From NCBI RefSeq assembly GCF_001428255.1, contig NZ_LMRW01000002.1, positions 62,001-126,000 on the forward strand: a DNA stretch of 64,000 nt. Direction: 5' to 3'. Shown one piece after another: positions 932 through 63,881 of the stretch; position 1 is the stretch's first letter, and the number at the start of each line of letters is the position of its first letter. Source of the stretch: Agromyces sp. Soil535. GTDB lineage: Bacteria; Actinomycetota; Actinomycetes; Actinomycetales; Microbacteriaceae. The translations under genes were made by a program, and so were the position numbers. The notes beneath the pieces were generated by a model. It ran no database searches, had not been told where the DNA came from, and saw only the letters and a program-made list of their open reading frames with translations.

Positions 932-1990
932 ATGCCGGCGAGTCCCCCCACCCCGGCCGGATCACGGGAGCGCCAGGTCCGGCATCGCGCCGCGCGCCTC
1001 GAGGACTGGATCCACGACGTGCGCGAGCGCTGGGCGCGTCGGCGCGGGCACGCGCCGACGGTCGTGCCGTACACGGGCTACGGATCCACGGAGTGGGTGC
1101 GCGTGCTCTGCCGCGTGCTCCTCAGCCGGCCGATCGCAGCCGATGAGCCGTCCAAGCGCCGTCGCAAGCGCCGGGAGCAGGGCATCCGCGGATGGCGGAG
1201 CTTCACGAGCGTGCCGGTGGGCGACGTTCCCGTGGTCATCGAAGTGGGCGGTGAGCGCATCGAGGTGCTCGCCGATCGCGGCGGCGTCGTCGATACCCGG
1301 GTCCCCGTGGCGCTCTCCCCGGGCTGGCACCGGGCGACCCTGCAGACCGAGGGCTCCGAGGCCGTGGAGGCCCCCGTCTGGATCGTGGGGCCCGACGTCG
1401 ACTTCGGAATCATCTCCGACGTCGACGACACCGTGATGGTCACCGCACTCCCCCGCCCCCTCGTCGCCTTCTGGAACACGTTCGTCCTCGACGAGCACGC
1501 CCGCATCCCGACCCCGGGCATGGCGGTGCTCTTCGAGCGTCTCGTGCGCACGCATCCGGGCTCCCCGGTGATCTACCTCTCCACGGGTGCGTGGAATGTC
1601 GCCCCGACGCTCACGCGCTTCCTCTCGCGCAACCTCTACCCATCCGGCCCGCTGCTCCTGACGGACTGGGGTCCGACCCACGACCGGTTGTTCCGCAGCG
1701 GTCGTGCGCACAAGGAGGAGAACCTCCGGCGGCTCGCGGACGAGTTCCCCGGCGTACGATGGCTCCTCATCGGCGACGACGGGCAGCACGACGAGGAGCT
1801 CTACGCGCGGTTCGCGGCCGAGCATCCCGACCGTGTCGCCGCCGTCGCGATCCGCCGCCTCTCCACGGGTGAGGCCGTGCTCGCGGGCGGCCGCACGAAG
1901 GCCGAGCAGCACGGCGCCGAGGTGCCGTGGGTCTCGGCGAGCGACGGGTCCACCCTCGCCGACCAGCTTTCCGACATCGGCCTGCTGTAG
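932..1990 (+). CDS. DUF2183 / App1-type phosphatase domain protein
   Basis: 352 residues from ATG at 932; CAGACT ends 6 nt before it, suggesting a leaderless start. The N-terminal half includes a beta-rich segment. The C-terminal half is the App1 catalytic domain (HAD-like), with FGIISDVDDTVM at about residue 160 giving the DxDxT nucleophile motif, VIYLSTGAWN as motif II, and HKEENL plus LLIGDDGQHDEE as the later HAD motifs. In yeast App1 is a phosphatidate phosphatase. The bacterial substrate is not known. No signal peptide is seen, so it is probably cytoplasmic. Convergent with pyrD. Confidence 0.85.
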   Translation: MPASPPTPAGSRERQVRHRAARLEDWIHDVRERWARRRGHAPTVVPYTGYGSTEWVRVLCRVLLSRPIAADEPSKRRRKRREQGIRGWRSFTSVPVGDVPVVIEVGGERIEVLADRGGVVDTRVPVALSPGWHRATLQTEGSEAVEAPVWIVGPDVDFGIISDVDDTVMVTALPRPLVAFWNTFVLDEHARIPTPGMAVLFERLVRTHPGSPVIYLSTGAWNVAPTLTRFLSRNLYPSGPLLLTDWGPTHDRLFRSGRAHKEENLRRLADEFPGVRWLLIGDDGQHDEELYARFAAEHPDRVAAVAIRRLSTGEAVLAGGRTKAEQHGAEVPWVSASDGSTLADQLSDIGLL

Positions 1991-2030
1991 GCCCATCGCC
2001 GGCCCGCGATCTGGTGGTCGGCCCGGAGGG

Positions 2031-3098
2031 TCAGGACGCCGCGGTCACCGCTGCGGTGCGCTCGGCGCGCGACCGCCGGATCCGGGCGAGGCCGCGGTTG
2101 ACCTGCCGCGCCCACAGCGGCCCGCGGTAGATGAACGCCGTGTACCCCTGCACGAGCGTCGCGCCCGCGTCGAGGCGGTCCTGCACGTCGGCAGCCGTCT
2201 CGACACCGCCCACCGAGATCACGCACTGCTCGGCCGGGACATTCGCCCTCACCAGGCGCAGGACCTCGAGCGAGCGGGCCGCGAGCGGCGCACCCGAGAG
2301 ACCGCCGGGGCCGACCCGCTCGATGACGGATGCCGGTGCGCTGAGTCCCTCGCGGGAGATCGTGGTGTTCGTGGCGATGATCCCGTCGAGTCCGAGCCGG
2401 GTGACGAGCTCGCAGATGCGCACGACCTCCTCGTCGGCGAGGTCGGGTGCGATCTTCACGAGCAGCGGCGCCCTGCCCGCTGCGGCGCGCACCGCCTCGA
2501 GGAGCGGCGCGAGGGCGTCGAGCTCCTGCAGGCCGCGCAGGCCAGGAGTGTTCGGCGAACTCACGTTCACCACGAGGTAGTCGGCGTAGGGGGCGAGCAC
2601 GCGTGCGCTCCGCTCGTAGTCGGGGACGGCGTCCTCGACGGGCGTCACCCTGCTCTTGCCGATGTTCACGCCGAGCACCGGCCGGTGCGTGCGACGTGCG
2701 AGCCGTGAGAGGCGCCCGACCGCGGCATCCGCCCCGCCGTTGTTGAACCCCATGCGGTTCACGAGCGCACGGTCGCCGAGGAGGCGGAAGAGGCGCGGCC
2801 GCTCGTTGCCGGGCTGGGCGACCGACGTGATCGTACCCACCTCCACGTGACCGAACCCGAGCTGGCCCAGCCCGCGCACGGCGAGGGCGTCCTTGTCGAA
2901 CCCCGCGGCCAGGCCGAAGGGCGAGGGGAACGTGCGGCCGAGTGCCTGCACCTCGAGCGACCGGTCGGGCCGCGTGAAGCGCTCCACGAGACGCCCCACG
3001 CCCAGGGTCGGCAGGGCCCGGATGACCCGGAAGGCGAGGTGATGGGCGTCCTCGGGGTCCATGCGGGACAGGACGAGGGAGAAGAGAAGTCGATACAT
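2031..3098 (-). CDS. pyrD: Dihydroorotate dehydrogenase (quinone), class 2
   Basis: 355 residues, normal for the membrane-associated class 2 enzyme that oxidises dihydroorotate to orotate with a quinone in pyrimidine synthesis. The N-terminal helix (MYRLLFSLVLSRMDPEDAHH) is the class 2 membrane/quinone segment. FMN-barrel motifs are present: PFGLAAGFDKD, VGTITSVAQPGN, NRMGFNNGGAD, VNVSSPNTPGLRGLQ (with the catalytic-serine region) and ATNTTISREGL. TAGCCT lies 10 nt before the ATG. No other pyr gene is adjacent. Confidence 0.95.
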   Translation of the reverse strand: MYRLLFSLVLSRMDPEDAHHLAFRVIRALPTLGVGRLVERFTRPDRSLEVQALGRTFPSPFGLAAGFDKDALAVRGLGQLGFGHVEVGTITSVAQPGNERPRLFRLLGDRALVNRMGFNNGGADAAVGRLSRLARRTHRPVLGVNIGKSRVTPVEDAVPDYERSARVLAPYADYLVVNVSSPNTPGLRGLQELDALAPLLEAVRAAAGRAPLLVKIAPDLADEEVVRICELVTRLGLDGIIATNTTISREGLSAPASVIERVGPGGLSGAPLAARSLEVLRLVRANVPAEQCVISVGGVETAADVQDRLDAGATLVQGYTAFIYRGPLWARQVNRGLARIRRSRAERTAAVTAAS

Positions 3099-3134
3099 GC
3101 CGGGACTCAGGCTATCGGAGCCGCGTCGGCCACC

Positions 3135-3608
3135 TCACTCGACGGGGCGTGCGGGCAGGCGGCCGTGCTCCGCGCGGAGCTGGCCGATGGCCGACTCGAA
3201 GTCGTCGAGTGATTCGAACGCCTGGTACACGCTCGCGAAGCGGAGGTACGCCACCTCGTCGAGCTCGCGGAGCGGCGGCAGGATCGCGAGTCCGATGTCG
3301 TTGGCCTCGATCTGCGAAGCGCCCGTCGAGCGGATCGTCTCCTCGACCTTCTGCGCGAGCACCGCGAGGTCGGTGTCGGTGACCGGGCGGCCCTGGCACG
3401 CCTTCTTCACGCCGGCGACGACCTTCTCGCGGCTGAAGGGCTCGATGACCCCGCTGCGCTTGATGACCGCGAGGCTCGCGGTCTCGGTGGTGGAGAACCG
3501 CCGGCCGCATTCGGGGCACTGCCGGCGGCGTCGGATGGCGAGTCCGTCATCGCTCGTGCGCGAGTCGATGACACGGGAGTCCGGGTAACGGCAGAACGGG
3601 CAGTGCAT
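3135..3608 (-). CDS. nrdR: Transcriptional repressor NrdR
   Basis: 157 residues, full length. The N-terminal zinc ribbon has C3/C6 (CPFC) and C31/C34 (CPEC), followed by the ATP-cone from about 46 to 136. NrdR senses ATP/dATP and represses ribonucleotide reductase genes through NrdR boxes. No nrd gene lies in this window, so its targets are elsewhere. The start at 3608 is supported by GGGAG 4 nt upstream and by a TAGGCT box 9 nt upstream. In many actinobacteria nrdR sits near dnaE or lexA; here it lies downstream of hisD in the same direction. Confidence 0.95.
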
Positions 3609-5053: not shown

Positions 5054-8000
5054 TCACACGAGGCAGTTCGGGCCGAGCAGGCTCTTCAGCTCGCCGTAGA
5101 GGTCGGCCGTGACCTGCACCGGGTACGGCAACTCGAACACGCGAGCAGTGCGCCCCTTCACGAGCCGCAGCCGCACCTCGGTCTCGCCGCGGTGCCGGAT
5201 GAGCACGTCGCCGAGTGCCGCGATCGTGTCGGTCGTGGCGCGCACGTCGGGCAGCGAGATGATCACCGGCCCTGTCTCGTCGCCCTGCCCGAGCTCCGGT
5301 GAGAAGACGCTGTAGGCGTGCAGGTTCATGCCGTCGTCGCGCATGCTCACGCGGCCGCGGACGACGACGATCGAGTCGCCCTTCAGCCCCGGCGCGAACT
5401 CCTGGTACGCCTTGCCCATGAACATCACGGTGATCTCGCCCGAGAAGTCCTCGACCTGGATCATGCCGTACTGGTTGCCGCTCTGCCGCGCCACGCGGTG
5501 CTGCACGCTCGTGACGAGGCCGGCGATGGTGACGGTCTCGCCGTCCTGCGTGGCATCCGACGATACCAGCTCGGTGATCGTGGTCGACGCGTGCTTCGCG
5601 AGCGGCACCTCGAGCCCGGCGAGCGGATGGTCGGAGACGTAGAGCCCCAGCATCTCGCGCTCGAACGCGAGCTTGTCGCGCTTGGCCCACTCGGGCCGGT
5701 CGGGCACCAGGGACGGCGCCGCAGCCTTCTCGTGCTCCTCGAAGAGGCTGTCGAAGTCGAAGCCGACGTCGCCGACCTCCTCGGCGCGCTTCTCCTTCAC
5801 GGCCGACTCCACCGCGCCCTCGTGGATCTCGACGAGCGCACGCCGCGTGTGCCCGAGCGAGTCGAACGCACCCGCCTTCACGAGCGACTCGATCGTGCGC
5901 TTGTTCGCGACCTGGATCGGCGACTTCTTCAGGAAGTCGTGGAACGACTCGAACCGCCCGTGCTGCTCGCGCGCGGCGCGGATCGCGTCGACCACGTTGA
6001 AGCCCACGTTGCGCACCGCGCCGAGCCCGAAGCGGATGTCGTCGCCGACGGCCGCGAAGTACCCGATCGACTCGTTCACGTCGGGCGGCAGCACCTTGAT
6101 GCCCATGCGCCGGCACTCGTTGAGGTACAGCGCGAGCTTGTCGCGCGCGTCGCCGACGCTCGTGAGGAGGGCCGCCATGTACTCAGCGGGGAAGTGCGCC
6201 TTCAGGTACGCCGTCCAGTAGCTGAGCACGCCGTAGGCCGCCGAGTGCGCCTTGTTGAACGCGTAGTCGGAGAATGGCAGCAGGATGTCCCACAGCGTCT
6301 TGATCGCGGCATCCGAGTAGCCGTTGGCCTTCATGCCCGCCGAGAAGCCCGCGTGCTGCTTGTCGAGCTCGGACTTCTTCTTCTTGCCCATCGCACGCCG
6401 CAGGATGTCGGCCTGCCCTAGCGAGAACCCGGCGACGCGCTGCGCGATCGCCATGACCTGCTCCTGGTAGATGATGAGGCCGTAGCTCGCGTCGAGGATG
6501 TCCTTCAGCGGCTCCTCGAGCTCGGGGTGGATGGGCGTGATCGGCTGCAGGCCGTTCTTGCGCAGCGCGTAGTTGATATGCGAGTTCGCGCCCATCGGCC
6601 CCGGACGGTACAGCGCGATGACGGCCGAGATGTCCTCGAAGTTGTCGGGTTTCATCTGCCGCAGCAGCGAGCGCATGGGGCCGCCGTCGAGCTGGAACAC
6701 GCCGAGCGTGTCGCCCTTGCCGAGCAGCTCGTACGCGCCCGCGTCGTCGAGCGCGAGGTCTTCGAGCACCGGACGGAATCCGCGGTTCGCCTCGATGTTG
6801 TCGAGGGCGTCGTCGACGATGGTGAGGTTGCGCAGCCCCAGGAAGTCCATCTTGATGAGCCCGAGCGATTCGCACGCCGGGTAGTCGAACTGCGTGACGA
6901 CCTGGCCGTCCTGCTCCCGCTTCATGATCGGGATGATGTCGATGAGCGGGTCGCTCGACATGATCACGCCCGCGGCGTGCACGCCCCATTGTCGCTTCAG
7001 GTTCTCGAGCCCGAGCGCGGTCTCGAAGACCGTCTTCGCCTCGGCATCCGTCTCGATGAGCGCGCGGATGTCGCCCGCCTCCTTGTAGCGGGGATGGTCC
7101 TTGTCGAGGATGCCCGACAGCGGGATGTCCTTGCCCATGATCGCGGGCGGCATCGCCTTCGTGAGCTTCTCGCCCATCCCGAACGGGAACCCGAGCACGC
7201 GGGACGAGTCCTTGAGGGCCTGCTTCGCCTTGATCGTGCCGTAGGTCACGATCTGCGCGACGCGCTCGTCGCCGTACTTCTCGGTGACGTACCTGATGAC
7301 CTCACCGCGACGGCGCTCGTCGAAGTCCACGTCGAAGTCGGGCATGGACACGCGATCCGGGTTCAGGAAGCGCTCGAAGATGAGGCCGTGCCGCAGGGGG
7401 TCGAGGTCGGTGATGCGCATCGCGTACGCGGCCATCGAGCCCGCACCGGAGCCACGGCCGGGGCCCACGCGGATGCCGTGGTTCTTCGACCAGTTGATGA
7501 AGTCGGCAACCACCAGGAAGTAGCCGGGAAACCCCATCTGGCTGATCACGCCGACCTCGTAGTCGGCCTGCCGGCGCACGTCGTCGGGGATACCGTTGGG
7601 GTACCGCACATGCAGGCCGCGCTCGACCTCCTTGACGAACCAGCTCTCCTCGCTCTCGCCGTCTGGAACAGGGAACCGCGGCATGAAGTTCGCGCTCGTG
7701 TTGAACTGCACGTTCGCGCGCTCGGCGATGAGGAGCGTGTTGTCGCAGGCCTCGGGGTGGTCGCGGAAGACGTGCCGCATCTCCGCGGCGGACTTCAGGT
7801 AGAACTCGTCGGCGTCGAACTTGAACCGGTTGGGATCGTCGAGCGTCGAGCCCGACTGCACGCAGAGGAGCGCCGCGTGGCTCTTCGCGTCGTGCGCGTG
7901 CGTGTAGTGCAGGTCGTTGGTCGCCACGAGCGGCAGGTCGAGCTGCTTCGCGAGGCGCAGGAGGTCGTCCATGATGCGGCGCTCGATGCCGAGCCCGTGG

Positions 8001-8584
8001 TCCATGATCTCGGCGAAGTAGTTCTGCTTGCCGAAGATGTCCCGGTAGTCGGATGCCGCCTTCACGGCCTCGTCGTACTGGCCCAACCGCAGGCGGGTCT
8101 GCACCTCGCCCGACGCGCAGCCCGTGGTGGCGATGAGCCCGGCGGAGTACGTCCGCAGGAGCTCGCGGTCCATGCGCGGCTTGAAGTAGTAGCCCTCGAT
8201 CGAGGCGAGGCTCGAGAGCCGGAACAGGTTGTGCATGCCCTCGGTCGTCTCCGACAGAAGGGTCATGTGCGTGTACGCACCCGACCCGGACACATCGTCC
8301 TCGCCGCCGCTGCCCCAGCGCACTCGGGTGCGATCGCCGCGGGGCGTTCCGGGCGTGATGTACGCCTCGGTGCCGATGATCGGCTTGATGCCCGCGTCGG
8401 TGGCCTGCTTCCAGAAGTCGTAGGCGCCGAAGACGTTGCCGTGGTCGGTGACCGCCACCGCGGGCATGCCCTCGCCCTGCGCCGCCTTGATCAGCTCGCC
8501 GATCCGGGCGGCGCCGTCGAGCATCGAGTACTCGCTGTGCACGTGCAGGTGGACGAAGGAATCGGCGGCCACGGGGCTCCTCAT
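5054..8584 (-). CDS. dnaE: DNA polymerase III subunit alpha
   Basis: 1176 residues, a DnaE1-type replicative polymerase without an internal DnaQ-type exonuclease domain. It opens with a PHP domain (FVHLHVHSEYSMLDG, residues 10-24). The palm acidic motif PDFDVDF is at 415-421, with GPGRGSGAGSM just before it. Finger and thumb regions, the helix-hairpin-helix and a C-terminal OB fold (VTIAGLVTSVQHR) follow. The ATG at 8584 is used; a GTG four codons later is possible. TAGACT at 8622-8627 may be its -10. The rluD-lspA-divIVA genes lie upstream on the same strand, as in other actinobacteria. Confidence 0.97.
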   Translation of the reverse strand: MRSPVAADSFVHLHVHSEYSMLDGAARIGELIKAAQGEGMPAVAVTDHGNVFGAYDFWKQATDAGIKPIIGTEAYITPGTPRGDRTRVRWGSGGEDDVSGSGAYTHMTLLSETTEGMHNLFRLSSLASIEGYYFKPRMDRELLRTYSAGLIATTGCASGEVQTRLRLGQYDEAVKAASDYRDIFGKQNYFAEIMDHGLGIERRIMDDLLRLAKQLDLPLVATNDLHYTHAHDAKSHAALLCVQSGSTLDDPNRFKFDADEFYLKSAAEMRHVFRDHPEACDNTLLIAERANVQFNTSANFMPRFPVPDGESEESWFVKEVERGLHVRYPNGIPDDVRRQADYEVGVISQMGFPGYFLVVADFINWSKNHGIRVGPGRGSGAGSMAAYAMRITDLDPLRHGLIFERFLNPDRVSMPDFDVDFDERRRGEVIRYVTEKYGDERVAQIVTYGTIKAKQALKDSSRVLGFPFGMGEKLTKAMPPAIMGKDIPLSGILDKDHPRYKEAGDIRALIETDAEAKTVFETALGLENLKRQWGVHAAGVIMSSDPLIDIIPIMKREQDGQVVTQFDYPACESLGLIKMDFLGLRNLTIVDDALDNIEANRGFRPVLEDLALDDAGAYELLGKGDTLGVFQLDGGPMRSLLRQMKPDNFEDISAVIALYRPGPMGANSHINYALRKNGLQPITPIHPELEEPLKDILDASYGLIIYQEQVMAIAQRVAGFSLGQADILRRAMGKKKKSELDKQHAGFSAGMKANGYSDAAIKTLWDILLPFSDYAFNKAHSAAYGVLSYWTAYLKAHFPAEYMAALLTSVGDARDKLALYLNECRRMGIKVLPPDVNESIGYFAAVGDDIRFGLGAVRNVGFNVVDAIRAAREQHGRFESFHDFLKKSPIQVANKRTIESLVKAGAFDSLGHTRRALVEIHEGAVESAVKEKRAEEVGDVGFDFDSLFEEHEKAAAPSLVPDRPEWAKRDKLAFEREMLGLYVSDHPLAGLEVPLAKHASTTITELVSSDATQDGETVTIAGLVTSVQHRVARQSGNQYGMIQVEDFSGEITVMFMGKAYQEFAPGLKGDSIVVVRGRVSMRDDGMNLHAYSVFSPELGQGDETGPVIISLPDVRATTDTIAALGDVLIRHRGETEVRLRLVKGRTARVFELPYPVQVTADLYGELKSLLGPNCLV

Positions 8585-8674: not shown

Positions 8675-9595
8675 TCAGTCGCCGCGGAGCACGTCGAGCG
8701 CGTGCGCGAGGTCGGCCGGGTACTCCGACTCGAACGTCGTCCACCTCCCGGTGCCCGGATGCGTCAGCGAGAGTTCCTTGGCGTGCAGCCACTGACGGGT
8801 CAGGCCCAGCCGTGCCGAGAGTGTCGGGTCGGCGCCGTACATGGCGTCGCCCGCGCACGGATGCCGCTGGGCGGCCATGTGCACGCGGATCTGGTGCGTG
8901 CGCCCCGTCTCGAGGTGAACGTCGAGGAGTGAGGCGTACGGGAACGCCTCGATCGTCTCGTAGTGCGTCACCGCGTGCTTGCCGGAGGCGGTCACCGCGA
9001 ACTTCCATTCCGAGCGCGGATGCCTCCCGACCGGCGCGTCGATCGTGCCGGCGAGCGGGTCGGGATGCCCCTGCACCACCGTGTGGTAGATCTTCTCGAC
9101 CTCGCGGTCGTGGAACTGGCGCTTCAGCTCGGTGTAGGCGCGCTCCGACTTCGCGACGACCATGAGCCCGCTCGTGCCCGCGTCCAGACGGTGCACGACG
9201 CCCTGGCGCTCGGGCGCTCCCGACGTGGAGATGCGGAAGCCCGCCGCCGCGAGTGCGCCGACCACGGTCGGGCCGTCCCAGCCGAGCGAAGGATGTGCGG
9301 CGACACCCGCCGGCTTGTCGACGACCACGACGTCGTCGTCGTCGTGCACGATCCCGAGCCCGGGCACCGCGACCGGCACGACCTCGAGCGTGCGCGGCGG
9401 CTCCCAGCTCACCTCGAGCCAGCCGCCGGCGCGGAGCCGGTCGGACTTGTCGACGGATGCCCCGTCGAGCACGGCTCCCCCGGCCGCTGCGATCTCGGCT
9501 GCCTGGGTGCGCGAGAAGCCGAGGAGCTTCGCGAGCCCCTGGTCGACGCGCACCCCGTCGAGCCCGTCGGGCACGGGGAACGAGCGGTGCTCCAT
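8675..9595 (-). CDS. rluD: RluA/RluD family 23S rRNA pseudouridine synthase
   Basis: 306 residues from the ATG at 9595, only 2 bp after the lspA stop. An S4 RNA-binding domain comes first ([20 protein letters not shown], then [11 protein letters not shown]). The catalytic domain has the [16 protein letters not shown] signature, whose Asp is the nucleophile, and the RTHQIRVHM motif. The family converts uridines in 23S rRNA helix 69 or similar sites; the exact target is inferred. The lspA-rlu-dnaE arrangement is conserved in Actinobacteria (for example Rv1539-Rv1547). Confidence 0.92.
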
Positions 9596-9597
9596 GC

Positions 9598-10257
9598 TCA
9601 GGACTCGGCGGCCAGCTGCGAGCCGGCCAGCGGAGTGCGTCCGTCGCCCGCGGGAGCCGCGTCGGGACCGTCGTTCGCGGCCGTCTCGGGCGCTTCGGCA
9701 TCGGTGGCCGGCGGGGCGTCGGCCGCGGCATCCGTGCGCTTCGACTCGCGCGTGCCGTCGAGTCCCACGCCTCGGATCGTCAGGATCATGAAGAGCACCA
9801 TGCTCGAGACGATGGCGATGTCGGCGACGTTGTAGATCGCGGGGATGAGCCACGGCGTCGAGATGAAGTCGATCACGTGGCCGAGCCCGAAGCTCGGCTC
9901 CCGGAAGAGCCGGTCGGTCAGGTTTCCGAGGACGCCGCCGAGGAGGAGTCCGAACACCAGCGCCCACGCGATCGAGCGGATGCGCCGGGCGAACCACACG
10001 ATGAAGGTGATCACGCCTGCGGCGAGGATCGTGAAGATCCATGTCATGCCGCTCGCGAGGGAGAAGGCGGCGCCGGGGTTCCGCACGAACTGCCATTGCA
10101 GCACGGTGCCGAGCGCCGGGACGACCTCCCCTTCGGTGAAGTTCGTGATGACGAGGTACTTGCTCAGCTGGTCGATGCCGTACACCACGAGGGCGGCGGC
10201 GACCAGGATGAGGAGTGCTGCAGCGGTGCCGACCTTCGCGGCGCGCTCAGCCGCCAA
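9598..10257 (-). CDS. lspA: Lipoprotein signal peptidase II
   Basis: 219 residues with four membrane segments. It cleaves the signal peptide of diacylglyceryl-prolipoproteins. The catalytic aspartates lie in NLTDRLF (D115) and NVADIAI (D146). The C-terminal ~50 residues after the last helix are an Ala/Asp/Pro-rich cytoplasmic tail longer than in E. coli LspA. The start is an unusual TTG at 10257, 11 bp inside the end of divIVA, implying translational coupling. I see no in-frame ATG or GTG ahead of the first helix that would fit better. Confidence 0.93.
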
Positions 10258-16428: not shown

Positions 16429-16507
16429 GTGGGGCGGTTCTTCCTCGGTGCGGTGGATGCGGTCGGGTCGGCGTGCCTCGGATGCCGCGGCATCCGCTCA
16501 CTCCACG

Positions 16508-39099: not shown

Positions 39100-39142
39100 C
39101 ACGTCGAGTGGCCCCGTGGCATCCGCGGGGCCACTCGACGTG
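39100..39142. terminator. Bidirectional terminator between fadD-like and def genes
   Basis: A perfect 17-bp stem (39100-39116 with 39126-39142) and a 9-nt loop that holds the octamer GGCATCCG. It begins 8 nt after the acyl-CoA synthetase stop. It serves both convergent genes. Confidence 0.85.
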
Positions 39143-50848: not shown

Positions 50849-50969
50849 GCCGGCTCACGTGCCGTCGTCGACCTCCTGGTCGGTGATGTGGCCGGCTGAC
50901 GCCTGCGCCGCGGCATCCGTTCGTCCAGTCAACCGCAGCCTGCCGCCGAACGGAACCCGGCACACGAGA

Positions 50970-52498: not shown

Positions 52499-52969
52499 TC
52501 AGTCCGCTGAGCGCTGGTCGTCGGTCGCGAAGCCGTCGAGCACGGCGCGTTCGCCCGACTCGAGCAGCTCCTGGAAGAGCGTGATCTGCAGCCCCGCCGG
52601 AGCCTCGAGCCGGGAGTTCAGCGACTGCCAGGGCGTGACGACGGGCTCGGCGACGACCCGGCCGCCCGCGCCCTCGAGTCGGCGGGTGACGCCCGCGGTG
52701 TCGGTGACCTCGAACGCGAGGCGGATGTGCGGGCTCTCGACGCCGCCGGCCTCGATGCGGTCGATGGCGCGCTTGTGCACCGGATTCGCGATCTCGAGCG
52801 TGGCGCGTCCCGCGTCGAGGATGACGACGCGTTCGTCGCCGCCCTGGGCGAACGCGAGGTACTCGGGCAGGCCGAGCGTGTCGCGGAAGAACGCGACCGC
52901 CGCATCGTAGTCGGTCGCCTCGACGACGACGCGGAGTTGCAGGACCGGGGGCGTTGCGGCATCCGTCAT
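52499..52969 (-). CDS. VOC-superfamily (glyoxalase/bleomycin-resistance-like) protein
   Basis: 156 residues with two babbab repeats. VVVEATDYDAAVAFFRDTLG opens the first module, and IRLAFEVTDTAGVTRRLEGA and LEAPAGLQITLFQELLE lie in the second. Metal ligands (His/Glu positions) can be suggested only in part. It may be a dioxygenase, isomerase or binding protein; the substrate is unknown. Confidence 0.82.
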   Translation of the reverse strand: MTDAATPPVLQLRVVVEATDYDAAVAFFRDTLGLPEYLAFAQGGDERVVILDAGRATLEIANPVHKRAIDRIEAGGVESPHIRLAFEVTDTAGVTRRLEGAGGRVVAEPVVTPWQSLNSRLEAPAGLQITLFQELLESGERAVLDGFATDDQRSAD

Positions 52970-53564: not shown

Positions 53565-54980
53565 ATGGATGAATCATGGGCCATTCCGGGCCTCGACCTG
53601 CACCTCGAGATCGACCTCGGGCACAAGGCCTCGTCGCTCGAGCGGGCACTGCGGGGCGCCGTTCGCGACGCACGGCTCTCCGCCGGAACCAGGCTCCCCT
53701 CGTCCCGCACGCTCGCTGCGGACCTCGGCATGGCGAGGAACAGCGTGGCCGACGTGTATGCGCAGCTCACGGCGGAGGGCTGGCTCGAGGCGCGGGTCGG
53801 GGCCGGCACCTGGGTGAGCGCGCGGGCGGGCGCTGACACCTCGGAGCGGGCGGCCGCGTCGTACGCGCCGTCCGCCCGGCTCGACCTGCGCGGCGGCATC
53901 CCCGATGCGGCCGCCTTCCCGCGGCGGGCCTGGGCGGCGGCGGCGCGGCGGGCGGTGCTCGAGGCGGCCTCGTCGGACTTCGGCTACGCCCCCGAACTCG
54001 GCACGCCGGAGCTGCGCGCGACCCTCGCCGACTACCTCGCCCGTGCCCGCGGCGTCGTGGCCTCGACCGAATCCGTCGTCGTGACGCACGGGTTCGGCGA
54101 GCTCCTCGGCCTCGCCTGCCGGACGCTCGCATCCCGAGGGGCGGCACGCGTCGCCGTCGAGGAGGTCGGACACGACGCGCATCGCGAGATCATCCGGGCC
54201 GCCGGCCTGACACCCGTGGCCCTGCCCGTCGACCGCGACGGCGCCGACACCGAACGGCTCGACGAGCGGGTCGACGCCGTGCTGCTGACGGCCGCCCACC
54301 AGTTCCCGACCGGCGTGCCGCTCGCACCCGGGCGGCGCGTCGCCGCAGTGCGGTGGGCCGAGCGCACAGGCGGACTCGTCATCGAGGACGACTACGACGG
54401 CGAGTTCCGCTACGACCGCCGCGCGATCGGCGCGCTGCAGGCGCTCGCCCCGGAGCACGTGTTGTACGCGGGTACGGCGTCGAAGAGCCTCGCACCCGCG
54501 GTCGGGCTCGCGTGGGGCGTCGTGCCCCGACCGCTCATCGCGCCGCTCTCCGCCGAGCGCCGACGGACGGGCGCTGCGGTCGACGTGCTGAACCAGCGCA
54601 CGCTGCACGCGTTCATCGCCTCGCACGAGTACGACCGCAACGTGCGCCGGCTCCGCGCCGAGTACCGCGCGCGACGGCTCGCGCTCGAGTCGCTGGTCGC
54701 CGACGAGCTCCCCGGATGCCGCGTGGCCGGACTCGCGGCCGGTCTCCACTGCCTCCTCGACCTCCCCGTCGGCACGACGGAGGCCAGGGTGACGGAGGAG
54801 GCGGATCGGCTCGGGCTGAGGTTCGAGGGGCTGGCGTCCTTCCGCCTGCGCGGGACGCCGTGGCGGCATCCGCCGGCCATGGTGGTCGGGTACGGCGCTC
54901 CCCCGCCGCATCGGTTCGACGAGGCGATCGGCCTCGCGATCCGGGCCATCCGCGCTGCGGCGGCCGGCGCCGTCGGGTGA
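53565..54980 (+). CDS. MocR/PdxR-type GntR regulator with aminotransferase domain
   Basis: 471 residues from ATG 53565. GntR winged helix at about 20-85 ([40 protein letters not shown]). The fold-type-I aminotransferase domain follows, with the PLP lysine K307 in [17 protein letters not shown] and [11 protein letters not shown] before it. MocR proteins use PLP or its amino-acid adducts to control neighbouring genes. Divergence from the AhpD-like gene suggests that target, but pyridoxal or amino-acid genes elsewhere are possible. Confidence 0.9.
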
Positions 54981-54993: not shown

Positions 54994-55027
54994 ACGCGTG
55001 AGGCGCGGATGCCGCGCGCTCACGCGT
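54994..55027. terminator. Bidirectional terminator overlapping the MBL stop codon
   Basis: A hairpin of about 15 bp with a single bulge (ACGCGTGAGGCGCGG / CCGCGCGCTCACGCGT), between convergent genes. Its apex carries the octamer CGGATGCC at 55006-55013. Confidence 0.65.
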
Positions 55028-55886
55028 CCTCGATGCTCCCCTCGTCGAGTGGGAGCCCGTCGAGCGCCGCATACGCCCGCTCGACCGCGCCGACGAGTCC
55101 CGCGACCGGCACAGGCCAGTGGTCGTGAGCGGCGAGAGCCTCGGCCGCGCCGAATCCGGCGTCGTGCGCCTCCGTGAGCCGCCGGGCGATCGTGTGCAGG
55201 TCGGCCGCCTGCCGAGCCACGAACTCGCGGTCGACCACGCGGCCGTTCCCGGGGACGACGAGGTCGCCCGGCCGCATCTCGGCGACCAGCGAGTCGAGCA
55301 CGCGCGGCCAGTCGAGCGGGTAGCAGCCCGACCCGTAGATCGGCGGTCCCGACTCCTCCACGAGGTCGCCGACGATCCACACGCGTTCGGACGGCACGAG
55401 CACGACGAGGTCGGTGTCGGTGTGCGCCCTCGGCTGCGGGTGCAGCTCGACCACGAGCCTGCCGAGGTCGAGCTGCTTCATCCGCTCGACCGGATGCGTC
55501 GGGGGCACGAGCCGCACCTCATCCCACTGCCGGTCGGGCTCGCGCCCCCGGTCATCCCTCCATGCGGCGAGCCGCGGCCCCTCGTATCGCTCGAAGTGGC
55601 GGGCGATGCCGGCGTGGCCGTGGATCGGGGCATCCGTCGCGGAGCCGGGACCGAACACTTGGTTGCCGAAGGTGTGGTCGAAGTGCGCGTGCGTGTTCAC
55701 GAGCCCGATCACGGGCTTGCCGAACCGTTCACGGAGGTCGGCGAGGATCTCCTCGCCCTCAGCGGGCTCGGCGCCCGAGTCGACGACGAGGAGGCCGTCG
55801 TCGCCCTCGACGACGACGACCGAGAGGTCGTACGGGCCGCCGCGCCGCTGGTGGATGCGGTGCGCGACGGTGGTCCAGGTTGCCAT
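55020..55886 (-). CDS. MBL-fold metallo-hydrolase
   Basis: 288 residues. The zinc motif NTHAHFDHTFGN gives H66, H68, D70 and H71. VVDSGAEPAEGEE, RAHTDTDLVVLVPSERVWI and VGDLVEESGPP are further family segments. A cytoplasmic hydrolase, possibly glyoxalase II- or lactonase-like; substrate unknown. TAGGCT lies exactly 6 nt before the ATG, implying a leaderless mRNA. Confidence 0.88.
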   Translation of the reverse strand: MATWTTVAHRIHQRRGGPYDLSVVVVEGDDGLLVVDSGAEPAEGEEILADLRERFGKPVIGLVNTHAHFDHTFGNQVFGPGSATDAPIHGHAGIARHFERYEGPRLAAWRDDRGREPDRQWDEVRLVPPTHPVERMKQLDLGRLVVELHPQPRAHTDTDLVVLVPSERVWIVGDLVEESGPPIYGSGCYPLDWPRVLDSLVAEMRPGDLVVPGNGRVVDREFVARQAADLHTIARRLTEAHDAGFGAAEALAAHDHWPVPVAGLVGAVERAYAALDGLPLDEGSIEDA

Positions 55887-55970: not shown

Positions 55971-56720
55971 GTGACCCCGCTCGACGGCATCCCCACCACG
56001 CGGCGCGACGACGCCTCTCACATGCTCACGGCCCGCGCGCAGCGCACCCTCGAGGCGATCGACGGGGGGACCCTCGACGAGATGCGCGCCCTGCGCGACG
56101 AGACCGAGCGCTTCATGCTGCGCTACAAGTTCGGTATGGACGAGGTGATCACGAAGCTCTCGATCCTGCGCGAGGAGTTCAACCAGAATCACGACTACAA
56201 CCCGATCGAGCACATCTCGAGCCGGCTGAAGAGCCTCGACAGCGTCGTCGCGAAGATGCAGCGCAAGGGCATCGAGCCGACCTTCGACACCATCCGCGAG
56301 ACCATCACCGACATCGCCGGCGTGCGGGTGACGTGCAGCTTCGTCTCGGACGCGTACCGCCTCGCCGAGCTGCTCACGGCGCAGCGCGACATCCAGGTGC
56401 TGAAGGTGAAGGACTACATCGCCGAGCCGAAGGAGAACGGCTACCAGAGCCTGCACCTCATCCTTGAGGTGCCCGTGTTCCTCTCGACGGGGGCGCACGC
56501 AGTGGCCGTCGAGGTGCAGATCCGCACCATCGCCATGGACTTCTGGGCGAGCCTCGAGCACAAGATCTACTACAAGTACGACCGGCAGGTGCCGAAGGAG
56601 CTGCTCGACCGGCTCACGGATGCCGCGCACACGGCGGCCGAGCTGGACACGCGCATGGAGCGGTTGCACCGCGAGGTGCACGGCGCGCCGGCGCACGAGC
56701 GCGGGAGCGTCGCGGTCTGA
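55971..56720 (+). CDS. Small alarmone synthetase (RelQ/RelP-like GTP pyrophosphokinase)
   Basis: 249 residues from GTG 55971. TAGCGT ends 7 nt before it; a GTG three codons earlier overlaps that box. A single RelA/SpoT synthetase domain: DIAGVRVTCSFVSDAYRLAE, VLKVKDYIAEPKENGYQSLH (G-loop/substrate motif) and VEVQIRTIAMDFWASLEHKI. There is no HD hydrolase, TGS or ACT domain, so it makes but does not degrade (p)ppGpp. The C-terminal helix would support tetramer formation as in RelQ. Confidence 0.92.
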   Translation: MTPLDGIPTTRRDDASHMLTARAQRTLEAIDGGTLDEMRALRDETERFMLRYKFGMDEVITKLSILREEFNQNHDYNPIEHISSRLKSLDSVVAKMQRKGIEPTFDTIRETITDIAGVRVTCSFVSDAYRLAELLTAQRDIQVLKVKDYIAEPKENGYQSLHLILEVPVFLSTGAHAVAVEVQIRTIAMDFWASLEHKIYYKYDRQVPKELLDRLTDAAHTAAELDTRMERLHREVHGAPAHERGSVAV

Positions 56721-56774: not shown

Positions 56775-57458
56775 TCAGCCCAGCGCGGCGAGGGCCGCGC
56801 GTCCCGCGTCCGTCACGCGGAGCGAGCGGTCGCCCGGCACACGCGACACCCAGCCCTCGGTGAGGGCCACGTCGAGCAGGTGCGCGCCCAGCCGGCCGGC
56901 GATGTGGGGGCGACGCTCGGTCCAGTCGAGGCATCCGCGCACCGCGGGACGTCGGCCGTCGGCGCCGACCTCCGGCAGCCCGAGGCGTATCGCGAGGGTG
57001 CCGGCACCTGCCGAGGGCAGGATGCGTCCGGGGCGGCCCGCCTCGAGCGGCGCGATCGCGCCCTCGGCCACGAGCGCGTCGGCGAGCCGCAGGGCGACGC
57101 GCCCTGCGAGGTGGTCGTAGCACGACCGGGCCTCGGCGAGTCGCTCCGCCGTCGCCGACTGCCGATAGGAGCTCACCGCCTGGCGTGGGGCGATCCGCTG
57201 CAGGGCCTCGACGGCATCGGCCACGTCCGGTCCGGCGAGGGCGAAGTAGCGGTGCCGCCCGAGCCACCGGTCGGTGACGAGCCCGCCCTCGACCAGCTGC
57301 GCGAGGTGCGCGCTGGCGGTCGGCGGCTTCACGCCGGCGATCACGGCGAGCTCGCTCGCGGGCAACGATCGCCCGTCGAGCAGCGCGACGAGCATGGCTG
57401 CGCGCGCGGGCTCGCCCATGAGTCGAGCAGGGGTCGCGAGGTCGGCGTCTCCGGGCAT
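56775..57458 (-). CDS. ArsR-family winged-helix regulator
   Basis: 227 residues from ATG 57458, fixed by TATCGT exactly 6 nt upstream; a GTG reading to 57482 is less likely. N-terminal HTH: MGEPARAAMLVALLDGRSLP, ASELAVIAGVKPPTASAHLAQLVEGGLV. The C-terminal half (about 115-227) has a conserved-looking LDWTERRPHIAGRLGAHLLD segment found in ArsR regulators lacking the metal-binding Cys motif. It probably controls the divergent P450-like/PEP-mutase operon. Confidence 0.85.
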   Translation of the reverse strand: MPGDADLATPARLMGEPARAAMLVALLDGRSLPASELAVIAGVKPPTASAHLAQLVEGGLVTDRWLGRHRYFALAGPDVADAVEALQRIAPRQAVSSYRQSATAERLAEARSCYDHLAGRVALRLADALVAEGAIAPLEAGRPGRILPSAGAGTLAIRLGLPEVGADGRRPAVRGCLDWTERRPHIAGRLGAHLLDVALTEGWVSRVPGDRSLRVTDAGRAALAALG

Positions 57459-57522: not shown

Positions 57523-58332
57523 ATGACGGATCTCATCGAGCGCGGCGACGCCGAACGCGTGCTCACCGACTCCCGGTTCGCGGTGCCTGAGGCGGATGCC
57601 GCGGCGACACGCCCCATGGGCCGGTTCCGCGCGAGCTCGTCTCGGTTCACGAACGGGCCGGCGCACGACCGGCGACGGCGACGGCTCGAGACCCTGTTGC
57701 ACACGATCGACACGTCGGCACTCGCCGCCGATGCGTCATCCCGCGCTCGATGGTCGGCGGCGTCGGGCGTCGACGCGGCTGAGATCGCGCGCCACGTTCC
57801 GGTCGCCTGCCTCGCCGGTGCGCTCGGGATCGCCGCGCCGGATGACGCGCCCCGGCTCGTGGCCGACGTCGCGGCGTCGTATGCGAGCGGTGCCGAGTCG
57901 GATCGGGCCGATGCGGCGATCGATCGACTCCTCGCCGCCGCAGCGCCCGCGACCGGCGACGGGGACGGCGAGTCCGGCGGTGCCGGCTCCGACGAGGATG
58001 CCGTGCTGCTCGTGCAACTCCTCGTGCAGGCCTACGCCGCGACGGCCGCGCTCGTCGAGGGCGCGATTCGGTCGACCGGTGCCGTGGCCGCGTCGATCAC
58101 GACCGCGGAGCTGCTCGCCGACACCCTGCGCGACGATCCGCCTGTGCGGCTCACGCGCAGGGTCGCACCGGACGGCGAAATGCTCACCCTGCGGCTCGAC
58201 GGCCCAGACCGCGAGTCCGGCGCAGGGCGTCCTCTACGCACGCTCGCGTTCGGCGCAGGCGCGCGCGCCTGCCCGGCACCGGACCTCGCGCTCGCCATGG
58301 CCGCCGCGATCATCGAGGAGCTCCGCGCATGA
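57523..58332 (+). CDS. Compact cytochrome P450-like protein
   Basis: 269 residues, against about 400 for bacterial P450s. Landmarks in order: a C-helix-like RFTNGPAHDRRRRRLETLL (about 41-59), an I-helix-like LLVQLLVQAYAATAALVEG (162-180), a K-helix ExxR counterpart reading DTLRDDPP (D200, R203), and the heme loop FGAGARACPAPDLALAM (243-259) with C250 as possible axial thiolate. The F-G and meander parts are largely missing. It may be a minimal P450, a heme-binding sensor, or a decayed enzyme still expressed. ATGA overlap couples it to the PEP-mutase-like gene; the ArsR gene is divergent. Confidence 0.65.
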   Translation: MTDLIERGDAERVLTDSRFAVPEADAAATRPMGRFRASSSRFTNGPAHDRRRRRLETLLHTIDTSALAADASSRARWSAASGVDAAEIARHVPVACLAGALGIAAPDDAPRLVADVAASYASGAESDRADAAIDRLLAAAAPATGDGDGESGGAGSDEDAVLLVQLLVQAYAATAALVEGAIRSTGAVAASITTAELLADTLRDDPPVRLTRRVAPDGEMLTLRLDGPDRESGAGRPLRTLAFGAGARACPAPDLALAMAAAIIEELRA

Positions 58333-59768: not shown

Positions 59769-60791
59769 TCAGTCGGGATTGCGCGCCCGACTGGGCTGCA
59801 CCCGCATGGGCTCGCCCGGCATCTTCGGGAAGTCGGGTGGGAACGGCAGCTCGCCGAGCCCGTCGTCGAGGTCGCGCTGCCACCATTCGAGGAGCGTCTC
59901 GAGGCGCCCGGCCCGCGACTCCATGCCCGCCCAGGGGTCTCCCACGTCGCGCAGCCGGTCGGGCACCGTGCGGATCGTGAACTGCGCCGGGTCGGCTGAC
60001 TCGAGTTCGTCCCACTCGAGCGGGCACGACACCGGCGCGTGCGGCAGCGGCCGCGGACTGTAGGCCCCCGCCATCGTGCGGTCGCGGTTCGCCTGGTTGT
60101 AGTCGATGAAGATGCGGTCGCCGCGCTCCTCCTTCCACCATGCGGTGGTGAGCTGGTCGGGCATGCGTCGCTCCAGCTCGCGCGCCAGTGCGATCACGGC
60201 GTGCCGCACGTCGAGGAACTCGTGCTCGGGCTCGATCGGCGCGAACACGTGGATGCCGCGGTTGCCGGAGGTCTTCACGAACCCGGCCAGCCCGACCTCG
60301 TCCATGAGCCCGCGCAGCGCGAGTGCGGCGGGCACGGCCTCGGCGAACCCGGTGCCGGGCTGCGGGTCGAGGTCGATGCGCAGCTGGTCGGGGTTGTCGG
60401 TGTTGTCGGTACTCGACGCCCACGGATGGAACACGACGGTGTTCATCTGCGCCGCCCAGACCGCGGCGGCAGGTTCGTCGAGCACGAGCTGCGGATGCCG
60501 CCGCCCGCTCGGGTACGTCACGGTGACCGATCGCACCCACTCGGGCGCGCCCTTGGGCGGGTTCTTCGAGAAGAACTGCTCGCCGTCGATGCCCTCGGGG
60601 AAGCGCTGGAGCGAGACCGGCCGGTCGCCGTTCGCCTCGATGAAGGCGTCGCCGACCGCGACGAGGTACTCGGCGAGCTCGAGCTTGGTGATGCCGGGCT
60701 CGGGCCAGATCACCCGTGTCGGCGAGGAGATCCGCACGTCGCGATCGCCGTGCGGACCAGGGACAGTGAGCGTGACAGCAGCGCCGGCCAT
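59769..60791 (-). CDS. Stand-alone LigD-type polymerase/primase domain protein
   Basis: 340 residues. An archaeo-eukaryotic-primase-like fold as in the LigD polymerase domain: RVIWPEPGITKLELAEYL, RPVSLQRFPEGIDGEQFFSK, the catalytic LRIDLDPQPGTGF (DLD), SGNRGIHVFAPI and IFIDYNQANRD (third acidic residue). There is no ligase or nuclease domain and no ku gene nearby. Related stand-alone proteins are Rv3730c and Rv0269c. Role in end joining or gap filling is inferred. TAGCGT lies 6 nt before the ATG. Confidence 0.9.
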   Translation of the reverse strand: MAGAAVTLTVPGPHGDRDVRISSPTRVIWPEPGITKLELAEYLVAVGDAFIEANGDRPVSLQRFPEGIDGEQFFSKNPPKGAPEWVRSVTVTYPSGRRHPQLVLDEPAAAVWAAQMNTVVFHPWASSTDNTDNPDQLRIDLDPQPGTGFAEAVPAALALRGLMDEVGLAGFVKTSGNRGIHVFAPIEPEHEFLDVRHAVIALARELERRMPDQLTTAWWKEERGDRIFIDYNQANRDRTMAGAYSPRPLPHAPVSCPLEWDELESADPAQFTIRTVPDRLRDVGDPWAGMESRAGRLETLLEWWQRDLDDGLGELPFPPDFPKMPGEPMRVQPSRARNPD

Positions 60792-60803: not shown

Positions 60804-60859
60804 CTCCCTCCGTGCGACGTCGCGAACGGATGCCGCCTCCGCGGCGGGCCAGCGGCGCA

Positions 60860-61925: not shown

Positions 61926-62891
61926 CTATGAGCGCCGTGCGTCGACCGTTATCGGGTCAACCCCCCAATCGGATGCCTCGGCCCGCGCTGCCGCATCGGC
62001 GCCGGAGCGCGTGTCCGCCCTGCGGGACCAGCGACGCACCTGCCCCACGGCGACGCCGCCCACGAGCAGCGCGCTGCCGGCCAGCTCGAGCGTGTTCGGC
62101 ACCTGCCCGAGGGCGAGCGCTGCCGCGGCGAGTCCGATCGGCGGTGTGAGCAGCGCGAACGGCGCGACGAGCGACGCCGGGTAGCGGCCGAGCAGCATGT
62201 TCCAGATGGTGTAGCCGACGAGCGACGCGAATCCAGCCGTGTACGCGACGCTCACGATCGTTTGCCAGCCGATGGTGGCGAACGCGTCGCCGACCGCGGA
62301 CGGTCCGTCGAGCAGCAGGCTGAGTGCGAGCACCGGCAGCGGCACGACGAGCGCCGACCAGACCACGATGCCGAAGCCGTTCGCGCCGGCCGCCGACCGC
62401 GAGATCACGTTGCCGATCGCCCAACTGAGGCCCGCGGCGACGCAGATCAGGAACGGCACGATCGCCCCGAACCCCGCCGTGCCCTCCAGCCGCCCCACGG
62501 CGACGACGCCGAGCCCCGCCACGCCGAGCAGCGCCCCGAGCAGCTGCATCCGGGTCGGGCGCTCGCGCAGCGCGACGACGCCGATCACCAGCGTGAAGAT
62601 CATCTGGCACTGCAGCACCACGGCGGCGAGGCCGGCGGGGAGCCCGAGGTGCATCGCGGTGAACAGCAGGCCGAACTGGCCGGCGCTCATGAAGAGGCCG
62701 ATGCCGATGATGACCCGCCACGGGGCATCGGGCTTGGGCACGAAGAAGACGAGGGGCACGGCGACCAGCGAGAACCGCAGGGCCACGAGCACGAGCGGGA
62801 GCGTGTCGCGCAGCCCGAGGTCGATGGCCACGAAGTTCACGCCCCAGATCAGGGCGACGAGGAGGCCGAGGAGCAGGTGTCTGGGGGTCAC
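61926..62891 (-). CDS. EamA/DMT-family transporter
   Basis: 321 residues from GTG 62891, with GAGGCT 6 nt upstream. Ten membrane helices in two EamA repeats, starting LLLGLLVALIWGVNFVAIDL and VPFLICVAAGLSWAIGNVIS. The family exports amino acids and other small metabolites; YedA/RhaT-type substrates cannot be predicted. The basic C-terminal tail is cytoplasmic. The divergent LysR gene 72 bp away is the likely regulator. Confidence 0.9.
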   Translation of the reverse strand: MTPRHLLLGLLVALIWGVNFVAIDLGLRDTLPLVLVALRFSLVAVPLVFFVPKPDAPWRVIIGIGLFMSAGQFGLLFTAMHLGLPAGLAAVVLQCQMIFTLVIGVVALRERPTRMQLLGALLGVAGLGVVAVGRLEGTAGFGAIVPFLICVAAGLSWAIGNVISRSAAGANGFGIVVWSALVVPLPVLALSLLLDGPSAVGDAFATIGWQTIVSVAYTAGFASLVGYTIWNMLLGRYPASLVAPFALLTPPIGLAAAALALGQVPNTLELAGSALLVGGVAVGQVRRWSRRADTRSGADAAARAEASDWGVDPITVDARRS

Positions 62892-62951
62892 GCCACCAGC
62901 CTCGCAGCGCGACCGATTCAGCACCAGTTCCGAATAGTACACCTCACAACG

Positions 62952-62957
62952 TACGAT
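62952..62957 (+). promoter_or_regulatory. -10-like box of the LysR gene (leaderless)
   Basis: TACGAT, 6 nt, ATG at 62964. Confidence 0.5.
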
Positions 62958-62963
62958 TACTTC

Positions 62964-63881
62964 ATGATCGATCTGGTGGGCCTGCGCGCCCTCGTCGCCG
63001 TCGACCGGGCCGGCTCGGTGGTGGCCGCCGCCGAGCGGCTGGGCTACACGCCGTCGGCCGTCTCGCAGCAGGTGAAGAAGCTGGAGCGCGACCTCGACGC
63101 CACGCTCCTGGAGCGACGGGGCCGCGGCGTGCTGCTCACCGAACGGGGCCGCACGCTCGCGAGCGAGGGACGTGAGCTGCTCGACGGCCTCGAACGGCTC
63201 GAGACCCTCGCCGCCGGCGGGTCGCGACCGTCGGCGCCGCTGCGCATCGCCTCGTTCTCGACCGCGACGCGCGGGCTCGTCGGCCCGGTGCTGCGAGCAC
63301 TCCGCCGATCGGATGCCGCGGTGCTCGCGACCGTGACGAGCGTCGACCCGGTCGAAGCGATGGACCTCGTCGCCACCGGCGCGGCCGATCTCGCGGTCGT
63401 GCACAACTGGAACTCGGTGCCGCTCGTGGCGCCCGCGCACGTCATGACCGAGCATGTGTGCCGCGACGAGGCCGACGTCGTGCTGTCGGTGCGGCATCCG
63501 CTCGCCGATCGCGACGAGCTCGAGCGGGCCGACCTCGTCGACGAGCTCTGGGCGAGCACGCCCAGGGGCGCGATCTGCCACGAGGCGCTCATGCGCATCT
63601 TCGCCGATCTCGGCACGGTGCCGCGCGTCGTCGCCGAGGATCCCGACTTCGCCTCGCTCGTCGAGCTCGCGAGCGAGGGGGTCGCGATCGCGCTCGTGCC
63701 GAGGCTCGGCCGCTCCGCCCTGCCCGACGGGGTCGTCGCACGTCCCCTCGCCGACCACAGCCAGGTGCGCGACGTGCGTGTCGCCTACCGCCGCTCGATG
63801 GCGGAGAGTCCTGGCCTCCGTCGCGCCGTGCAGCTGCTGGTCGAGGCGGGCGCGCGGGTCGTGCCGCCGACCGGTGCGTAG
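62964..63881 (+). CDS. LysR-family transcriptional regulator
   Basis: 305 residues. N-terminal HTH: LRALVAVDRAGSVVAAAERL, YTPSAVSQQVKKLERDLDAT, LLERRGRGVLLTERGRTL. The periplasmic-binding-like effector domain begins near residue 90 (LRIASFSTATRGLVGPVLRA). Divergent from the EamA exporter, the common layout in which LysR activates an exporter when its substrate accumulates. The ligand is unknown. Confidence 0.9.
   Translation: MIDLVGLRALVAVDRAGSVVAAAERLGYTPSAVSQQVKKLERDLDATLLERRGRGVLLTERGRTLASEGRELLDGLERLETLAAGGSRPSAPLRIASFSTATRGLVGPVLRALRRSDAAVLATVTSVDPVEAMDLVATGAADLAVVHNWNSVPLVAPAHVMTEHVCRDEADVVLSVRHPLADRDELERADLVDELWASTPRGAICHEALMRIFADLGTVPRVVAEDPDFASLVELASEGVAIALVPRLGRSALPDGVVARPLADHSQVRDVRVAYRRSMAESPGLRRAVQLLVEAGARVVPPTGA

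Follow-up and report, generated by a model that had tools for sequence, protein, structure and literature searches.

The stretch of DNA analysed here (the window) comprises 64 kb of Agromyces sp. Soil535, whose genome (4.83 Mb in 29 contigs) carries the handle G000; other genomes are cited by similar handles (G057, G106 and so on), and g85 and g58 denote genera. Its most conspicuous feature is an octamer, CGGATGCC on one strand and GGCATCCG on the other, which is scattered through the window in 63 exact copies, both strands counted, against 6.15 expected from 100 dinucleotide-preserving shuffles (largest value 16). A sequence-only reading of the same DNA had claimed more than 50 copies against about five expected, and the excess proves larger than claimed. 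Genes for ComEA, with its SLBB and helix-hairpin-helix domains, and for ComEC are located ∼ 18 kb upstream of the window; the best relatives of this ComEC come from Agromyces, with A. ramosus at 73%. The octamer probably serves as a self tag in natural transformation.

By gene calls made here, which came from a simple caller of our own that missed some atypical genes, mainly on contig C1, 17 of the window copies lie in genes in the GAT-GCC (Asp-Ala) register, 13 in the GCA-TCC (Ala-Ser) register and 22 are spread over the remaining four; the last 11 are intergenic. Copies in the Asp-Ala register include those at 2724–2731, 5552–5559, 6308–6315 and 7043–7050, all on the minus strand, and the Ala-Ser register is found at 2327–2334 and 8050–8057 on the plus strand. 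Further plus-strand copies within genes occupy 7470–7477, 8858–8865, 9017–9024, 9454–9461, 12208–12215, 15945–15952, 16597–16604, 19266–19273, 20129–20136, 24365–24372, 25229–25236, 26404–26411, 27154–27161, 28072–28079, 32839–32846, 35214–35221, 39362–39369, 43392–43399, 44342–44349, 54713–54720 (in a register seen three times in the window), 56617–56624, 60492–60499, 61970–61977 and 63310–63317. Minus-strand copies within genes occupy 1181–1188, 9727–9734, 12500–12507, 15679–15686, 20342–20349, 22791–22798, 24155–24162, 24835–24842, 30806–30813, 32933–32940, 33809–33816, 36589–36596, 41330–41337, 46240–46247, 48205–48212, 48578–48585, 52217–52224, 52958–52965, 54865–54872, 55629–55636, 56930–56937 and 63493–63500. 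Intergenic copies are found at 14774–14781, 28507–28514, 57593–57600 and 60827–60834 on the plus strand and at 31865–31872 and 50912–50919 on the minus strand. The three starts that had been named as non-coding (28507, 31865 and 50912) are indeed intergenic. The positions listed in the sequence-only reading were exact except for two, 54715 and 30807, which should read 54713 and 30806.

The enrichment extends throughout the source genome, which contains 4,584 copies (2283 forward and 2301 reverse), whereas the reversed word, used as a control, occurs 223 times. Correction by Markov models, which the sequence-only reading had proposed, leaves a large excess: in 464 kb of the source genome an order-3 model predicts 58 copies and 364 were observed, and for the 10-mer CGGATGCCGC it predicts 10.2 where 211 were seen (21-fold). 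The maximal-order (order-6) expectation for the octamer in the window is 57.8, close to the 63 copies present, because the shorter words within the motif are themselves enriched, as a real longer motif would lead one to expect. The frequency of about one copy per kb, alike on both strands, is that of the DNA uptake sequences (DUS) and uptake signal sequences (USS) of naturally competent bacteria.

In four stretches of 64–200 kb the strand counts were 72/51, 46/49, 40/43 and 32/31, with no significant bias (smallest p 0.07). This bears on the possibility that the octamer is a Chi-like recombination signal read by RecBCD or AdnAB. Chi sites are over-represented short words found across chromosomes, as is the octamer, and they are strand-biased with replication, a bias that the four stretches, which were not placed on replichores, do not display. 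Such a signal would moreover give no role to the inverted hairpin pairs at terminators that are described below, and we regard this explanation as improbable. More generally, the balanced strands disfavour a strand-directed signal such as Chi or the FtsK-orienting polar sequences (KOPS). From the list of segregation, repair, methylation and uptake offered by the sequence-only reading, strand-directed segregation is thereby disfavoured, and uptake fits the data best.

The motif is a signal at the level of the DNA, as is supported by the fact that copies within genes exceed those left by synonymous-codon shuffling. In 395 called genes 280 copies were found, compared with 52 after shuffles carried out either genome-wide or within genes (40 shuffles each), and five of the six registers far exceed their shuffled values. 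The sixth (GGC-ATC-CG, opposite frame 0) showed 36 copies against 28.7 expected, which is not above the largest shuffle. This register, nearly explained by codon shuffles, is what speaks for an origin of the octamer in codon or dipeptide usage. That origin is rejected by the shuffles as a whole, and the evidence from the other five registers, together with the use of rare codons inside the motif, makes it extremely improbable. The GAT codon accounts for 1261 of 8277 cases (15%) overall and for 103 of 124 (83%) in the context CG_GCC; similarly, GCA accounts for 1417 of 17787 (8%) overall and 92 of 111 (83%) in the context G_TCCG. The condition under which the sequence-only reading would have been refuted, namely GAT and GCA use as high outside the motif as inside it, does not hold. 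Intergenic density is also greater than coding density (1.09 versus 0.73 per kb), which argues further against a codon origin. The claim that the octamer is indifferent to reading frame holds, but the indifference is incomplete, 17 and 13 window copies being in the Asp-Ala and Ala-Ser registers and 22 in the other four together.

The octamer is the core part of a longer Agromyces consensus, rCGGATGCCnCG, which is not palindromic. With the first G of GGATGCC taken as position 0, 559 core copies in the source genome have C at −1 in 397 cases, C at +8 in 388 and G at +9 in 334. Judged in the 464 kb by the order-3 model, single mismatches in GGAT occur at 0.6–2.6 times expectation compared with 21 times for the perfect 10-mer. 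At the G that follows GGAT two variants stand at 4–5 times expectation, one on four copies (5.1 times) and one on six, and C-to-T changes at the first of the last two Cs amount to 34 copies, 5.3 times expectation.

The seven-base core recurs in other genera, with flanks that differ. When G057, G106 and G086 were scanned for k-mers without supervision, words containing GGATGCC emerged again. For comparison of the flanks the core was fixed beforehand, and g85 and g58 were each judged from one genome. Twelve Agromyces genomes, six of them named, share C at +8 and mostly have G at +9. In G106 (g85) the preference is for G at +7 (245 of 295 copies) and +8 shows none, and G057 (g58) displays weak flanks only, so that the core is almost bare. 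A constant core with genus-dependent flanks is likewise a property of DUS and USS.

These data bear on the main rival explanation, modelled on the highly iterated palindrome HIP1 of cyanobacteria, in which an orphan methyltransferase would mark part of the motif and a bias in mismatch repair would turn near-matches into perfect copies. PMC4390886 describes HIP1 likewise as a dispersed octamer that is lost in some genomes, is replaced by other motifs, is associated with methyltransferases and has single deviations biased towards its outer bases. Deviations from the motif studied here are also concentrated at the outer bases. The HIP motifs are palindromic in the same account, however, which rCGGATGCCnCG is not, and the flank described above is graded, asymmetric and different between genera. 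On these grounds, together with the distribution data considered below, a HIP1-like origin is judged to be unlikely.

Pairs of copies in inverted orientation form a further class of sites. In 1.28 Mb from nine genomes, 39 pairs within ∼ 36 bp run from core to complement, 19 have the opposite order and 27 are in tandem. Eighteen of the 39 core-to-complement pairs are intergenic, and 13 of these 18 lie no more than 150 bp past a stop codon. Judged by position, such pairs would appear to sit at terminators, as inverted pairs of DUS and USS do. In the window, two copies (16479–16486 on the plus strand and 16489–16496 on the minus strand) make up an 18-bp perfect palindrome at 16479–16496, ∼ 12 bp past the stop of a minus-strand gene. 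At what is apparently the matching site, motif hairpins with different loops occur in G142, G385, G079 and G429; none is listed at the matching place in G345. Three single copies that had been assigned to terminators lie inside strong predicted hairpins between convergent genes: 33943–33950 (minus) in the hairpin at 33939–33966, 39118–39125 (minus) in that at 39100–39142, and 55006–55013 (plus) in that at 54994–55028. Elsewhere in the source genome, three motif palindromes at G000:C1:107560, 110797 and 110961 share identical 40-bp surroundings; they belong to a longer repeat and are not independent.

The motif is restricted to one family. Expressed as the ratio of motif copies to control copies per genome, enrichment ranges from 0.4 to 39 among 199 Microbacteriaceae genomes; among the 165 that measure 2 Mb or more the median is 6.1 and 49 attain at least 10, and the 34 genomes under 2 Mb are low (median 2.1). 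In 230 genomes from 19 other families of the order no enrichment was seen, the ratio being at most ∼ 4. Copy numbers in the six named Agromyces genomes lie between 3118 and 4000, and their control counts between 150 and 228. Other named genomes with the motif, from which the family was identified, include Microbacterium ulmi (2739 copies) and Cryobacterium sp. 1639 (1706 copies), and it is also present in two metagenome-assembled genomes titled Microbacteriaceae. Leucobacter chromiisoli is low (332 copies, control 150), as are G164 and G397 within g85 (313 and 619 copies, compared with 1554 to 3329 in seven others), and the bulk of the variation in ratio falls between genera. Two genomes showed repeated words of their own. 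In G096, which is motif-poor, another repeated palindrome, GATCCGGATC, was found 14 times in 80 kb, where the expected number was set at a floor of 0.3 and the palindrome was counted on both strands (L033–L036). In G017 (L051–L054), overlapping 10-mers around GCAGGGCCGC occur in 16–20 copies each in 80 kb.

This distribution also bears on a third alternative, namely that the octamer is the binding site of a protein that organises the chromosome, whether in segregation, in DNA translocation or in shaping the nucleoid. A nucleoid could conceivably be organised by sites dispersed in their thousands. The copies are nevertheless clumped and not evenly spaced (coefficient of variation 1.23) and have no significant orientation bias. 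Chromosome-organising proteins are usually conserved, whereas the motif is confined to a family and differs tenfold within a genus. We therefore give this possibility little credence.

Copies of the motif are gained and lost over time. In DNA aligned between G000 and each of G345, G142, G385, G079 and G429, 34–41% of motif sites are fully kept compared with 24–26% of all 8-mers (for G142, 29 of 71 sites against 26%), so that the excess of retention among congeners is modest. Motif-rich G057 keeps 12 of 35 sites, compared with 14% of all 8-mers, and the motif-poor relatives G397 and G164 keep 2 of 34 and 1 of 26, compared with 16% and 14% respectively.

Atypical DNA and phages appear to be poorer in the motif. 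In 10-kb windows, those with GC below 0.67 hold 3.9 times the expected copies and those above 0.71 hold 8.2 times, GC being no more than a proxy for acquisition. Eight phage stretches from Microbacterium and Curtobacterium hosts (202 kb) contain 15 octamers against 14.1 expected, a comparison with expectation alone. At the start of contig C1 in the source genome, the region G000:C1:1-90000 (L009–L013) holds only 1–6 copies in each 10 kb; its GC is mostly lower, and it is possibly acquired DNA. With regard to the HIP1-like explanation, the low ratios of small genomes and the occurrence of another motif in another family, described next, fall in its favour; the apparently smaller number of copies in lower-GC DNA and phages falls against it, though residence time could account for this.

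A scan of named actinobacterial loci turned up a different dispersed octamer, CGGCGTAC, in the Nocardioidaceae. In three Nocardioides-group loci (L208, L211 and L214, two of them possibly from close relatives), 45 copies were counted in 57 genes compared with 10.4 after synonymous shuffles, and they occupy all six registers. In the genomes G439, G440 and G441 the octamer occurs 2808, 2780 and 1813 times and its control 160, 152 and 99 times, giving the octamer a density of up to ∼ 0.85 per kb, and across 81 Nocardioidaceae genomes the ratio ranges from 1.3 to 28.6 (median 8.5). In the same three genomes CGGATGCC is near background (342, 322 and 227 copies, controls 183, 173 and 125). Counts of CGGCGTAC in Agromyces and in nine further genomes likewise stay close to background, never exceeding 2.8 times the control. 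Stretches of 17–87 kb each from the Arthrobacter group, Streptomyces, Myceligenerans, Janibacter and Brevibacterium gave no word equally strong in all registers. Two words were raised in these stretches, CGACGCCG in Arthrobacter (62 versus 33) and GGCGAGCA in Brevibacterium (28 versus 7.8, with 24 of the 28 in one register).

An uptake signal would require a channel and a pilus, and genes for both are present, as in organisms with DUS or USS. ComEC was found in 195 of the 199 family genomes, a near-universal presence that removes it as a discriminating gene. PilT of the type IVa pilus exceeds its cut-off in 98 of the 199, which do not include G000, G079, G142, G057 or G106, and its association with the motif is weak (p 0.003 when genomes are compared, 0.02 when genera are). 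A Tad ATPase of a first kind was present in all of 18 hand-picked genomes, with matches of at least 304 bits, 12 of them over the curated cut-off. A second Tad cluster, as seen in G142, encodes an ATPase, two T2SSF proteins, a 66-residue protein that has no Pfam hit, and TadE-like and Tad-like proteins. ComEA/ComEC with two tad clusters can transform the actinobacterium Micrococcus luteus, and the pairing of ComEA/ComEC with tad genes is said to be frequent in Actinobacteria (PMC4322843).

The second Tad ATPase is associated with motif richness in the Microbacteriaceae. The link was first noticed in the 18 hand-picked genomes and then tested on the 199. The gene was scored as present where the best match with alignment A1 had E ≤ 1e-100 (140 of 199 genomes); at E 1e-60 matches extend to 167, the weaker ones being taken for other Tad ATPases, and 12 genomes were counted as lacking a match by their absence from the match table. 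Neither this test nor that of PilT took in the 34 of the 199 genomes that are smaller than 2 Mb. In the remainder, the median ratio is 7.4 in the 117 genomes with the second ATPase and 3.3 in the 48 lacking it (p 2e-6). By genus, a ratio of at least 10 is reached in 21 of 52 genera that mostly have the gene and in none of 20 that do not (Fisher p 3e-4). The gene is present in 24 of the 25 richest genomes, and the Agromyces genome G194 (170 contigs), which does not have it, shows a ratio of 7.3 compared with 18–21 in three congeners. Three genomes have ratios above 10 and no second ATPase (G152, G017 and G082), G017 perhaps through an unusually low control.

In three genomes that were examined, mobile elements lie within or next to the gene for the second Tad ATPase. 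In the source genome (L251:6520-11027, G000:C6) it breaks off near model position 324, and two phage-type integrase genes come after it. In two genomes of the Nocardioides family the gene is split (split-gene loci of G516 and G529: L289 and L291): the genes between the halves in G529 include those for a serine recombinase and a phage capsid, and the insert in G516 carries a phage-type replication gene together with a weak recombinase zinc-ribbon match below cut-off. G071 has the two halves side by side in two frames, and half-length matches occur in further genomes, some of which may reflect contig ends or divergence. The gene may thus be a repeated target of integration. Interruption of competence genes by mobile elements is known in many species (PMC4774983). 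These disruptions support, without proving, the idea that the second Tad system serves transformation.

Taken together, the data make it on balance probable that the octamer forms the core of a self tag, dispersed over the genome, which acts like a DNA uptake sequence and is maintained as cells transform naturally by way of a Tad pilus and ComEA/ComEC. This reading is preferred because the features match those of DUS: the motif is dense and symmetric between strands, and it has a strict core, dialects, terminator-linked pairs and a history of loss in some lineages. In such a scheme, competent cells would prefer DNA that bears the tag. Tagged DNA would be bound by the type IVb (Tad/Flp) pilus or its minor pilin, and the bound DNA would pass through ComEA/ComEC and recombine into the chromosome. 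Alleles with a good tag would be taken up and copied more often, so that molecular drive would build up tags at every place the protein code permits, on either strand, inside genes and outside them, and as hairpin pairs at terminators. Recognition of the motif during uptake, a Tad pilin as its receptor and drive as the cause of the enrichment are inferred.

Several observations weigh against the uptake-sequence reading. Single mismatches are in excess at three outer positions, by up to 14-fold (position 8 of CGGATGCCGC), and the seven-base core is mildly high in the eight phage stretches (61 against 44.9 in 202 kb). ComEC also occurs in motif-poor genomes, and 8 of the 25 richest genomes lack PilT of the type IVa pilus, which rules out the Neisseria-type pilus as the general machine. 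The association with the second Tad ATPase is a correlation whose statistics ignore kinship: 31 genera with the gene are not motif-rich, G152 is motif-rich and does not have it, and in G000, one of the richest genomes, it is truncated. The Nocardioidaceae show no such link, the median ratio being 8.4 in 53 genomes with the full gene and 7.9 in 18 lacking it (p 0.68), with ten genomes set apart by hand as split or truncated from their match ranges. Finally, motif-rich G106, which has a differing dialect, keeps 2 of 30 G000 sites, under the 14% average, and G194 (1 of 18) and a second stretch of G079 (2 of 18) also lie below average, both being short sets.

A broader proposal, which we consider evenly poised between right and wrong, is that high-GC Gram-positive bacteria use family-specific self codes (GGATGCC in the Microbacteriaceae and CGGCGTAC in the Nocardioidaceae), variable in strength and flanks between genera and read during transformation by a Tad/Flp pilus in place of a Neisseria-type one, and that phages and other mobile elements respond by inserting themselves into the gene for the Tad ATPase. 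Uptake sequences have been described for two Gram-negative families, the Pasteurellaceae and the Neisseriaceae (PMC7811141). No report of the motif, or of an actinobacterial uptake sequence, was found in the titles and abstract openings of the open-access matches listed, and the term ‘uptake sequence’ gave no hits in the main text of PMC4322843 or PMC8467076. If the reading is true, this would be, as far as the literature searched shows, the first monoderm lineage with sequence-specific uptake of self DNA, and natural transformation would by implication be widespread among the Actinobacteria. A comparable code across actinobacterial families would mean that sequence-guided exchange of self DNA arose again, in monoderm cells and with a different pilus. 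It would indicate in which environmental actinobacteria natural transformation is to be expected and would offer a handle for genetics, namely a tag added to donor DNA; why uptake sequences evolve would become testable on new, independent cases.

The comparison with known systems is closest for the DUS of the Neisseriaceae, which PMC3630211 describes as a 10-base asymmetric motif in thousands of copies per genome, with a strict short core, dialects within the family and terminator-linked inverted pairs, all as found here. The present motif differs in its unrelated sequence, in its high-GC Gram-positive setting and in the lack of type IVa PilT from several of the richest genomes. The USS of the Pasteurellaceae is likewise dispersed, a 9-base core tied to natural competence (PMC1626085 and PMC7811141); it is unrelated in sequence and belongs to another phylum. 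Cyanobacterial HIP1 resembles the Agromyces motif as a high-frequency dispersed octamer with alternative motifs in some relatives, and differs from it in being palindromic and methyltransferase-linked (PMC4390886). The parallel with the Flp/Tad transformation of M. luteus lies in the machinery, since ComEA/ComEC and two tad clusters, as described in PMC4322843, are what is found here.

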